Source: Streptomyces sp. Je 1-79 (GTDB taxonomy: Bacteria > Actinomycetota > Actinomycetes > Streptomycetales > Streptomycetaceae). Taken from it: a stretch of 64,000 nucleotides of DNA. Each line of letters begins with the position of its first letter. Within the stretch, counting starts at the first letter, position 1. Where the stretch lies: assembly GCF_025195125.1 (NCBI RefSeq), contig NZ_JAMGSL010000003.1, positions 318,362 to 382,361 on the forward strand, in the 5' to 3' direction. Of this stretch, positions 19,769 through 23,528 are shown piece by piece. Both the position numbers and the translations under genes were made by a program. Under the pieces are notes generated by a model that was given only the letters and a program-made list of their open reading frames with translations, was not told the origin of the DNA and did no database searches.

Positions 19769-21031
19769 TCAGATCGTGCGGAAGGCCAGCACCACGTTGT
19801 GGCCGCCGAAGCCGAACGAGTTGTTGATCGCGGCGATCGTGCCCTGCGGGAGCTCGCGCGGCTCGTCGCGGACGATGTCCGCGTCGACCGCCGGGTCCAG
19901 GTCGTCGACGTTGATCGTCGGCGGGGCCAGACGGTGGTGCAGCGCCAGGACCGTCGCGACGGTCTCGATGCCGCCCGCGCCGCCCAGCAGGTGACCCGTC
20001 ATCGACTTCGTCGCGGAGATCGCGACGTGGTCCAGGTCCTCGCCCAGCACCTTGCGCAGCGCCTTGATCTCGGCCACGTCGCCCTGCGGCGTGGACGTCG
20101 CGTGCGCGTTGAGGTGGACGACCTCGGCAGGCTTCAGGTCCGTCGAGTCCAGCAGGTTCTGCATCGCCGCGGCGATGCCCCGGCCGGTCGGCTCGGGCTG
20201 CGCGATGTGGTGGCTGTCGGCCGAGAGGCCCTGGCCCAGCACCTCGCAGTAGATCCGCGCGCCACGGGCCTTCGCGTGCTCCTCGGACTCGAGGATCACC
20301 ACGCCCGCGCCCTCGCCGAGCACGAAGCCGTCACGGCCCGTGTCGTACGGACGCGAGGCCTTCGTCGGCTCCTCGTTGTTCTTGGACATCGCCATCATGT
20401 TGGCGAACGCCGCGATCGGCAGCGGGTGGATCGCCGCCTCCGTGCCGCCGGCGACGACCACGTCGGCCCGGCCGGTACGGATCATCTCGACGGCGTAGCC
20501 GATCGCCTCGGCACCCGACGCGCACGCCGAGACCGGGGTGTGCACGCCCGCCCGGGCGTTCACCTCCAGGCCGACGTTGGCGGAGGGGCTGTTCGGCATC
20601 AGCATCGGCACGGTGTGCGGGGACACGCGGCGTACGCCCTTGTCCTTCAGCACGTCGTACTGGTCGAGCAGAGTCGTGACACCGCCGATGCCGGAGGCGA
20701 TGACGGAGCCGAGCCGCTCGGGCGCGATGCTCCCGTCCTCACCGGCCGGGGCGGTGTAGCCCGCGTCGGCCCACGCCTCACGGGCCGCGATCAGCGCGAA
20801 CTGCGCCGAGCGGTCCAGCTTGCGGGCGAGCGGGCGGGGCAGAACGTCGCCCGGGTCGACCGCGGCGAGGGCCGCGATCTGGACGGGCAGTTCGGCGAAG
20901 CGTTCGCCCTCGAGGGGCTTGACGCCGGAGCGTCCCGCGATCAGACCTTCCCAGGTCGATGCGGAGTCGCCACCCAGCGGTGTGGTTGCGCCGATACCGG
21001 TGACGACCACGGTGCGATTGGTCGAGCTCAC
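19769..21031 (-). CDS. fabF: Beta-ketoacyl-ACP synthase II
   Basis: A 420-residue condensing enzyme extending acyl-ACP with malonyl-ACP in type II fatty acid synthesis. The thiolase-fold triad is present: Cys170 in SACASGAEA, His in NAHATSTPQGD and His in KSMTGHLLGGAGG. It is the last gene of the operon fabD-fabH-acpP-fabF, 79 bases after acpP. GTG 21031 is preceded by GGAGAAAG. A longer in-frame start exists but lacks a site and would add non-conserved residues. Confidence 0.96.
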   Translation of the reverse strand: MSSTNRTVVVTGIGATTPLGGDSASTWEGLIAGRSGVKPLEGERFAELPVQIAALAAVDPGDVLPRPLARKLDRSAQFALIAAREAWADAGYTAPAGEDGSIAPERLGSVIASGIGGVTTLLDQYDVLKDKGVRRVSPHTVPMLMPNSPSANVGLEVNARAGVHTPVSACASGAEAIGYAVEMIRTGRADVVVAGGTEAAIHPLPIAAFANMMAMSKNNEEPTKASRPYDTGRDGFVLGEGAGVVILESEEHAKARGARIYCEVLGQGLSADSHHIAQPEPTGRGIAAAMQNLLDSTDLKPAEVVHLNAHATSTPQGDVAEIKALRKVLGEDLDHVAISATKSMTGHLLGGAGGIETVATVLALHHRLAPPTINVDDLDPAVDADIVRDEPRELPQGTIAAINNSFGFGGHNVVLAFRTI

Positions 21032-21110
21032 AGGAATTCTTTCTCCACGTGTGTGATGGTCGAAATACGGCGCCACCGCCGGGTGGCAGACCGAGTCAGC
21101 AGGGGCCGAA

Positions 21111-21359
21111 TCAGCCCTGGTGCTTCAGGATGTAGTCGGTCGCGTCGCCGACCGTCTTGAGGTTCTTGACGTCCTCGTCCGGGATCTTGACGTCGAAGCG
21201 CTCTTCGGCGGCGACAACGACCTCGACCATGGACAGGGAGTCGACGTCGAGGTCGTCCGTGAAGGACTTCTCGAGCTGGACGTCCTCGGTCGGGATGCCG
21301 GCGATCTCGTTCACGATCTCGGCGAGACCTTCGACGATCTCTTCCTGGGTGAAGGCCAT
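21111..21359 (-). CDS. acpP: Acyl carrier protein
   Basis: An 82-residue acidic four-helix carrier. Ser41 in the DVDSLS motif receives 4'-phosphopantetheine. It shuttles growing acyl chains among the Fab enzymes. It sits between fabH and fabF, as in the classical Streptomyces fatty acid synthase cluster. AAGGAG lies 8 bases before ATG 21359. Confidence 0.97.
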   Translation of the reverse strand: MAFTQEEIVEGLAEIVNEIAGIPTEDVQLEKSFTDDLDVDSLSMVEVVVAAEERFDVKIPDEDVKNLKTVGDATDYILKHQG

Positions 21360-21416: not shown

Positions 21417-22487
21417 CTAGGGGAGAGTAACGACCGTCGCGGCGAAGACGAGACCCGCCCCGAAGCCGATGATGAGCGCCGTGTCGCCGCTCTTCGCCTT
21501 GCCGGTCGCCAGGAGCCGCTCCATCGCGAGCGGAATCGAGGCGGCCGAGGTGTTGCCGGTGGTTTCGACGTCACGCGCGACCGTGACGTGCTCCGGCAGC
21601 TTCAGAGTCTTCACCATCGAGTCGATGATCCGCATGTTCGCCTGGTGCGGAATGAAGACGTCAAGGTCGTCCGCCGAGATTCCGGCGGCGTCCAGCGCCT
21701 GCTGGGCGACCTTCGCCATCTCGAAGACGGCCCAGCGGAAGACCGCCTGACCCTCCTGCGTGATGGCGGGGAACTTGATCTCGCCCTGCTCGTTGAGGGG
21801 GAGCTTGGGGACGTCGCCGGTGGGGGTCCCCCCTGCTCGAGCGGAGTCGAGAGCTTGGGGGAGGAATTCGTTCCACGGGACGGTCTGCTTGATCGTCTCG
21901 GACTTGTCGCCCTCCGAACCCCACACGGTGGGGCCGATGTGCGGCACGTCGGAGGGGCCGACCACGACCGCGCCGGCGCCGTCGCCGAACAGGAAGGCCG
22001 TCGCGCGGTCCTCCAGGTCGGTCAGGTCGCTCAGCCGCTCGACGCCGATGACGAGTACGTACTCCGCCGAGCCCTCGACGATCATGCCCTTGGCGAGGGT
22101 CAGGCCGTAGCCGAAGCCCGCGCAGCCGGCGGAGATGTCGAACGCGGCCGGCTTGCCGGCGCCGATCTTGTCGGCGATCTCGGTGGCGACGGCCGGGGTC
22201 TGCTTGAAGTGCGAGACCGTGGAGACGATCACGGCGCCGATCTGCTCCGGGTCGATCCCGGCGTCGGCGATGGCCTTGCCGGAGGCCTCGACCGACATCG
22301 CGGTCACGGTCTCCTCGGGGGACGCCCAGTGGCGGGTGGCGATGCCGGAGCGCGAGCGGATCCACTCGTCGGACGAGTCGATCGTCTCGAGGATCACCTC
22401 GTTCGGCACGACCCGGGTGGGGCGGTAGCCGCCGACACCCATGATCCGTGCGTACGGGGCGCCCTTGCTGGGCTTGATCTTCGACAT
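21417..22487 (-). CDS. fabH: Beta-ketoacyl-ACP synthase III with an in-frame repeat insertion
   Basis: A 356-residue initiating condensing enzyme that joins acyl-CoA (acetyl or branched starters) to malonyl-ACP. Catalytic residues are intact: Cys122 in ISAGCAGFGYG, His in PHQANMRI and Asn in the TTGNTSAAS motif. The chain is longer than usual for FabH. Residues about 209-224 (PQALDSARAGGTPTGD) are encoded by a palindromic repeat that looks inserted in frame between the conserved QTVPWNEF and VPKLPLN segments. That position is a surface loop after the 190s region, away from the catalytic residues. It lies 16 bases after fabD. Confidence 0.95.
   Translation of the reverse strand: MSKIKPSKGAPYARIMGVGGYRPTRVVPNEVILETIDSSDEWIRSRSGIATRHWASPEETVTAMSVEASGKAIADAGIDPEQIGAVIVSTVSHFKQTPAVATEIADKIGAGKPAAFDISAGCAGFGYGLTLAKGMIVEGSAEYVLVIGVERLSDLTDLEDRATAFLFGDGAGAVVVGPSDVPHIGPTVWGSEGDKSETIKQTVPWNEFLPQALDSARAGGTPTGDVPKLPLNEQGEIKFPAITQEGQAVFRWAVFEMAKVAQQALDAAGISADDLDVFIPHQANMRIIDSMVKTLKLPEHVTVARDVETTGNTSAASIPLAMERLLATGKAKSGDTALIIGFGAGLVFAATVVTLP
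21816..21863. repeat. Streptomyces-type palindromic repeat inside fabH
   Basis: The core at 21822-21861 has GGGGGTCCCCC at one end, a CTCGAG-centred middle and AGAGCTTGGGGG at the other. From general knowledge of Streptomyces genomes, this CCCCCAAGCTCTCG...CTCGAGCAGGGGGGACCCC element recurs in intergenic DNA. Here it lies within coding sequence and keeps the frame. GAGCTTGGGG also occurs exactly at 21801-21810 and 21851-21860, 50 bases apart. Confidence 0.8.
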
Positions 22488-22503: not shown

Positions 22504-23445
22504 TCAGGCTGCAGTGTGCTCGGCGACGAGCGTGCGGGCCGCGTCGAGGTCGTCGGGGGTCTTCAGGGCGACCGTCGCCACGCCCGGAAGCGCGCGCTTG
22601 GCGAGACCGGTCAGGGTGCCGCCGGGGCACACCTCGATCAGCGCCGTCGCGCCCAGGGCCTTGAAGGTCTCCATGCACAGGTCCCAGCGGACCGGGTTGG
22701 CGACCTGGCCGACGAGGCGCGCGATGACCTCCGCGCCCTCGGTGACGACCTGGCCGTCCTTGTTGGAGACGTAGCGCACCTGCGGAGCGGCGACCGTCAG
22801 CGACTTCGCGGCGGCCTCCAGCTTCGCCACCGCGGGCGCCATGTGGTGCGTGTGGAACGCGCCGGCGACCTTCAGTGCCACGACCCGGCGGACGCCCTCG
22901 GGCTTGTCCGCCTCCAGGGCGGCCAGCTGCTCCAGGGTGCCGGCGGCCACGATCTGGCCGGCGCCGTTGACGTTGGCCGGGGTCAGACCGAGCTTCTCGA
23001 GGTGCGGAACCGTCACTTCGGGGTCTCCGCCGAGCAGCGCGGACATGCCGGTCTCGGTGACCGCGGCGGCCTCGGCCATCGCCAGGCCACGCGTCCGTAC
23101 GAGACGCAGGGCGGCGGTGTCGTCGAGGACGCCGGCGAACGCGGCCGCGGTGATCTCGCCGACGCTGTGGCCCGCGACGGCGCCGGGGGCGCCCGCCGCG
23201 TCAGCGGCAGATGTGCCGAGCGCGGCGGCGGAGAGCAGGCCCGCGGCGACGAGCAGGGGCTGGGCGACGGCGGTGTCACGGATCTCGTCCGCGTCCGCTT
23301 TCGTGCCGTAGTGGACGAGGTCGAGCCCGATGGCCTCGGACCAGGCCGCCAGGCGGTCGGCGGCACCGGGGAGTTCGAGCCAGGGAGTCAGGAAGCCGGG
23401 CGTCTGGGCGCCTTGGCCGGGAGCGACGAGTACGAGCACCCTCAC
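22504..23445 (-). CDS. fabD: Malonyl-CoA:ACP transacylase
   Basis: A 313-residue transacylase that loads malonyl units from CoA onto ACP. Motifs: GQGAQ near residue 10, GHSVGE with the nucleophile Ser near 94, an Arg near 119, and the His of AFHTHHM near 205. First structural gene of the fab operon, 83 bases after fasR. Two GTG starts are possible, 23445 and 23439, two codons apart. I chose 23445 because the AGAGAG site lies upstream of it, and GAGG would abut the other directly. Confidence 0.96.
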   Translation of the reverse strand: MRVLVLVAPGQGAQTPGFLTPWLELPGAADRLAAWSEAIGLDLVHYGTKADADEIRDTAVAQPLLVAAGLLSAAALGTSAADAAGAPGAVAGHSVGEITAAAFAGVLDDTAALRLVRTRGLAMAEAAAVTETGMSALLGGDPEVTVPHLEKLGLTPANVNGAGQIVAAGTLEQLAALEADKPEGVRRVVALKVAGAFHTHHMAPAVAKLEAAAKSLTVAAPQVRYVSNKDGQVVTEGAEVIARLVGQVANPVRWDLCMETFKALGATALIEVCPGGTLTGLAKRALPGVATVALKTPDDLDAARTLVAEHTAA

Positions 23446-23528
23446 ACTCTCTCTTGGGGACGGCTCCAAGCGCCCGTGGGGACTAGGACGAAGAACCGTC
23501 GGGGGAATTGTTGGTGTTCGACAAAAGT

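Follow-up and report, generated by a model that had tools for sequence, protein, structure and literature searches.

The window, a 64,000-nucleotide stretch of DNA from Streptomyces sp. Je 1-79, carries the gene order fabD-fabH-acpP-fabF on its minus strand. The fabH gene (21417..22487) encodes a beta-ketoacyl-ACP synthase III of 356 residues. It adjoins a fabD-like gene (22504..23469) on one side, while acpP, encoding the acyl carrier protein (21111..21359), and a fabF-like gene (19769..21076) lie on the other; these three genes were named from their sequence and position. Given the gene order and the fact that the best solved relatives of the protein are KAS III enzymes, its identification as FabH can be regarded as safe. 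The catalytic residues Cys122, His281 and Asn312 are invariant among 48 FabH orthologues, on which grounds the enzyme described below, with its insert at residues 209-222, looks intact. The fabH gene is essential in Streptomyces.

After W205 and before the FPAI motif, FabH has a loop (21774..21872, minus strand) that varies in length within Streptomyces. The segment from IKQT to FPAI comprises 19-35 residues in Streptomyces proteins without the element reported here and 43-44 residues in those with it, and FabH of M. tuberculosis has a short loop at the position of the insert. A 35-residue form of the same segment, for example WDTYRTTPLPGGDGPEARPALEEIR, was seen in another Streptomyces group (L112-L117).

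The loop of the window protein holds a 42-nt palindromic element at 21821..21862, the plus strand of which is TGGGGGTCCCCCCTGCTCGAGCGGAGTCGAGAGCTTGGGGGA. The element lies in frame on the minus strand within fabH and encodes LPQALDSARAGGTP, residues 209-222. The strand read as the fabH sense strand is the C-first strand of what we call subfamily A, TCCCCCAAGCTCTCGACTCCGCTCGAGCAGGGGGGACCCCCA, and the insert-bearing protein contains the segment LPQALGSARAGGTP. The core of the element has a single match in the window, with 0 mismatches, and the fabH copy departs from the consensus of the family at just two positions, each of them a common variant. The first-pass annotation had placed an in-frame palindromic repeat at 21816-21863; the window sequence and its translation confirm the frame, and the limits were correct to within a few bases. 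It had further assigned residues 209-224 to the repeat and estimated an addition of about 13-16 residues. The start at 209 stands, whereas the element ends at 222, and only the lower figure holds, the net gain being 13 residues (39 nt). An AlphaFold model based on the alignment of the 48 orthologues was weak (pLDDT 64, and below 50 in the insert). The insert would presumably form a surface loop.

A search of 296 Streptomyces genomes with the FabH of the window gave a match in 296/296. The nearest proteins fell into two sets, four with the segment (the protein itself and those of G250, G143 and G271) and 13 about equally close ones without it (L010-L022). At this site L006-L009 have exactly 39 nucleotides that L010-L022 lack, and elsewhere the aligned protein is 94-97% identical. 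The empty form reads WNEF-HVGDV or similar, and the filled form WNEF-LPQALDSARAGGTP-TGDV. The net gain of 39 nt is taken from this filled/empty comparison with the 13 close relatives. The segment is also missing from most Streptomyces FabH proteins and from that of M. tuberculosis, which upholds the earlier proposal that the repeat was inserted into fabH; the alignment over many Streptomyces that had been suggested as a check revealed species both with and without the insert. Among the species sampled, nine distinct ones carry an A-type insert in FabH, including S. narbonensis, S. flavochromogenes, S. griseoluteus and S. omiyaensis.

The element is not unique to this gene, as a search of the genome, also proposed in the first-pass annotation, made clear; neither of the two findings named there as refuting the proposal was obtained. 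A 33-nt pattern (up to 3 mismatches) has 5 copies in the own genome and 0 in the reversed control. With up to 3 mismatches allowed in 39 nt, subfamily A was found in 122/296 Streptomyces genomes (reversed control 0), with a maximum of 41 copies in one genome. Its status as a repeat is therefore far beyond chance. A sister form, subfamily B (CCCCCACTCTCGGCTTCGCTCGAGCGGGGGGACCCC, 36 nt), is just as common and was found in 90/199 genomes with up to 66 copies (reversed control 0). Identical copies were seen with unrelated flanks, and many of the sampled copies are intergenic. One copy in the own genome (C7:311267; L003 1501-1533) overlaps a cobalamin riboswitch at its 3' end; the riboswitch lies upstream of a cobN-like gene, and the copy may affect its expression platform. 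Another (C19:100412; L004, about 1500) lies just upstream of a gene resembling that for methionyl-tRNA formyltransferase. When seven loci were searched against Rfam 15 with E values up to 1, no family matched the element itself, the sole match being the cobalamin riboswitch overlapped by one copy; no match near fabH reached the gathering threshold.

The A core is contained in 25 Streptomyces plasmids; in the 20 listed, the match falls outside annotated genes wherever annotation is available. No exact match to the A core was found in viral contigs. In other genera of the family Streptomycetaceae, the core occurs sparsely. One genome of another genus (G420) has 49 copies while most of its congeners have none, and this suggests a recent horizontal arrival followed by amplification. 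In G095 (L297-L305), the element lies within a longer repeated intergenic sequence, often at contig ends. The contig ends hinted at a transposon carrying these copies; this idea was rejected, since the copies belong to the longer intergenic repeat and no transposase was seen nearby.

The presence of the element inside a gene is not peculiar to fabH. Of 100 copies with readable context, 22 have coding sequence of the same strand on both sides, and 22/22 of these are in frame and open, with none shifted or stopped. Because the sample favours the best-scoring genomes and those rich in copies, and is not random, the 22% is no estimate for the genus. The host genes, as named from sequence, include cobQ, glnE, pepN and those for an acyl-CoA dehydrogenase, a copper P-type ATPase, a Ser/Thr kinase, MMPL and MFS transporters, an enoyl-CoA hydratase, LuxR-type regulators and glycosidases. 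Two more in-frame copies occur in the own genome, one near the N-terminus of a solute-binding lipoprotein (C11:63975) and one in an EamA-like transporter (C2:35237). The element can be read without a stop in all six frames; we do not regard this as a special property, since the base composition gives the same result in 35-50% of shuffles and in 38% of random 45-mers of the window.

The net change in length was analyzed at several other sites. Subfamily A adds 39 nt in cobQ, where the 12 relatives of the genus are all empty, and subfamily B adds 36 nt both in glnE (compared with a 96% identical relative) and in the acyl-CoA dehydrogenase gene. The clearest case is noncoding: in L225 (G026:C1), one genome has both empty and filled versions of a host repeat within about 400 nt. 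The empty copy reads ..GCGCCCACCC-GTGC-CGCCCCAGCGG.. and the filled one ..GCGCCCACCC-TCCCCCA...CCCCCAT-CGCCCCAGCGG.., a net gain of 39 nt for A; B copies in host repeats of the same type give a net gain of 36 nt. A gain in a multiple of three is thus found also where no reading frame needs to be saved, in this one type of noncoding site. On the reverse strand of L225 (offsets about 1840-2160), a further palindromic repeat of Streptomyces (GGTGCCGCTGCGCCCACCCGTGCCGCCCCAGCGGCACGACTGCCCGCAGC) is present in several copies and has repeatedly served as host to the hairpin element; in these nested repeats A, B and a third core type occupy one position.

No target-site duplication was found at the junctions in fabH, glnE, the acyl-CoA dehydrogenase gene, cobQ and the one noncoding repeat. 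At the junctions examined, 3-4 target bases have apparently been replaced. Most sites have CC or CCT before the core and CATC after it, giving the extended consensus CCT-CCCCCA...GGACCCC-CATC. With target bases replaced and none duplicated, the junctions seem to fit no standard transposon.

Subfamily B also occurs in fabH, at the very position of A. There it encodes LPHSRLRSSGGTPTGD or a variant, adds 36 nt relative to the empty form, and is read in its middle in a different frame from A. Carriers of the B-type fabH include S. albiflavescens, S. glomeratus, S. poonensis, S. minutiscleroticus, S. bikiniensis and others. Two trees were examined, one of fabH without the loop and the other of the neighbouring genes fabD-acpP-fabF. 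In both, A falls in one clade and B in another, S. bikiniensis (B) stands within the A clade, and both types are patchy. On the flank tree, the branches with strong support require at least 4 changes of state for A and at least 7 for B; these changes may be gains, losses or transfers. Since near-identical fabH alleles exist with and without the insert (L084 and L151), exchange of alleles between species probably contributes, and transfer by homologous recombination could account for part of the patchy distribution.

It is worth considering whether these facts could be explained in another way. The segment might be no insertion at all, being an ancestral part of FabH whose likeness to the repeat is accidental or which other lineages have lost. 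The variable length of the loop would be in line with this idea. However, the fabH copy is very close to the consensus of a family found at hundreds of unrelated loci, short-loop forms of FabH occur in M. tuberculosis and in many Streptomyces, and independent copies lie in frame within unrelated proteins. The dispersed copies already refute the idea, and we attach practically no probability to it. A less extreme alternative is that fabH received a single ancient insertion, that A and B are this same insertion rewritten by gene conversion from copies elsewhere, and that many lineages have since lost it through recombination with empty alleles. The near-identical filled and empty alleles would agree with such losses, and the sharing of one position by A, B and a third variant in the noncoding host repeat makes a swap of the core in place thinkable. 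A shared position could, however, equally come from the target preference seen at most sites. A and B stand in separate clades on both trees, S. bikiniensis excepted, and a change from A to B would need two compensating indels or the conversion of a 36-nt tract. A single ancient insertion thus seems unlikely to us, while still deserving some weight.

The retention of the element in fabH could also reflect a function, either of the nucleic acid or of the protein. The predicted hairpin is stable (-19.5 to -20.4 kcal/mol), and some changes in the stem are paired and compensatory within the family; on these grounds, formation of the hairpin probably matters for the spread or function of the family. 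It might then be supposed that the element is kept in fabH for a hairpin function in mRNA or DNA, such as attenuation, mRNA stability or protein binding, and not through tolerance by the protein. The copy at the riboswitch and the many intergenic copies would be consistent with this. The z-scores are nevertheless weak (about -1.6 to -2.1), most FabH genes lack the element, and in L024 and L092 of fabH group B the palindrome is degraded and the frame intact; in G087, too, the palindrome has decayed and the fabH frame is still open. We therefore consider this explanation improbable. Scarcely better placed is the possibility that the added loop is adaptive, altering the substrate choice, dimer contacts or ACP docking of FabH, and was selected repeatedly at one position. 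The arrival of two subfamilies at the same position and the wide variation of loop length in the genus speak for it, but that variation exists here even without the element, close relatives live without the insert, and the structure model, being weak, does not locate it. Moreover, amino-acid divergence in the insert is about 5 times that in the remainder of FabH (A, 0.122 vs 0.025; B, 0.335 vs 0.073). The simplest reading would be that the insert is a tolerated, near-neutral spacer.

We consider it very likely that a dispersed hairpin repeat was inserted into fabH and kept as part of the protein, that B entered the same position separately elsewhere, and that the same has happened in many genes. 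Of this, the analysis shows the insertion itself, the dispersal of the repeat, its presence or absence among close relatives, the net lengths and the position in frame. According to this insertion model, a short noncoding hairpin-forming repeat entered fabH in the lineage of the window's Streptomyces. It would have been retained because it added exactly 39 nt (13 codons) without a stop codon, in a loop tolerant of length change. The sister subfamily (+36 nt) would have entered separately in another lineage and in S. bikiniensis, and colonisation in frame has been repeated in many other genes of the genus. As for the movement itself, the element may be copied through a hairpin intermediate with help in trans from a putative transposase, a route that we favour tentatively, a little short of an even chance; replication-associated template switching, or gene conversion, appears somewhat less probable. 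A Y1_Tnp transposase is commoner in genomes with at least 5 B copies (27/43 vs 39/156; Fisher p=7e-6, uncorrected for phylogeny and genome size). Of those 43 genomes, 16 have no Y1 transposase, and no element copy was found near the five Y1 transposase loci examined. A Y1/RAYT transposase was set aside as the driver, the association being statistical, with no physical link at the loci examined.

Several known elements resemble the repeat. Rickettsia palindromic elements (RPE), and similar protein-coding palindromes of Wolbachia, occur both between genes and in frame in conserved genes (PMC10969869, PMC2229807), and in the case of guanylate kinase an insert of the RPE type leaves the enzyme functional (PMC2229807). 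The Streptomyces element is likewise both intergenic and in frame in conserved genes (the 22 of the 100 sampled copies, and fabH) and has no genes of its own. RPEs are, however, about 105-150 bp long and are reported to end in CGTC (PMC3733652 for CGTC), whereas the Streptomyces element is GC-rich, measures 39-42 nt with a net gain of 36 or 39 nt, and has no CGTC end in its consensus. The REPs tagged with GTAG/CGTC are also short palindromes of high copy number; some lie within genes, in some genes at about the same site, and RAYT transposases accompany them in some species (PMC3733652, which does not mention Streptomyces or Actinobacteria). The Streptomyces consensus has neither GTAG nor CGTC. 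MITEs such as ERIC, RUP and NEMIS (PMC2229807) share its small size, non-autonomous nature, dispersal and hairpin formation, but the Streptomyces element is much shorter and has no target-site duplication at the junctions examined. Because the element differs from them in length, termini and host and carries neither tag, it is not filed as a member of the RPEs or the GTAG/CGTC REPs; the RPEs are its close counterpart in kind. A literature search by sequence and topic, reaching subscription journals to a small extent, found no earlier description of the family in Streptomyces.

Palindromes in frame in essential genes have so far been a topic chiefly for Rickettsia and Wolbachia, with their reduced genomes. 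Here events of this kind are widespread among large, free-living antibiotic producers, the inserted unit is far smaller, and closely related filled and empty alleles, as well as two subfamilies at one position of one enzyme, are available. The spread of very short palindromes, and their possible feed into protein evolution, thus becomes testable in a genetically tractable genus. It is conceivable, although we hold it with more doubt than assurance, that very short mobile hairpins insert by a mechanism which itself yields a net change divisible by three, that they prefer a certain target context, and that they thus enter genes in frame again and again. Such hairpins would then be a standing source of new protein loops, and the position in fabH would be a natural hot spot, one that two subfamilies have struck at least three times. 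Where annotation meets peptides such as GVPPLERSREWGR, LPHSRLRSSGGTP and LPQALGFARAGGTP in a Streptomyces protein, these should be read as signatures of the insert and not as conserved motifs. An in-frame B copy was also observed in a Ser/Thr protein kinase (L229, residues 106-119), in the early part of the catalytic domain and shortly after the strand with the conserved lysine, where one might expect an insert to have consequences.
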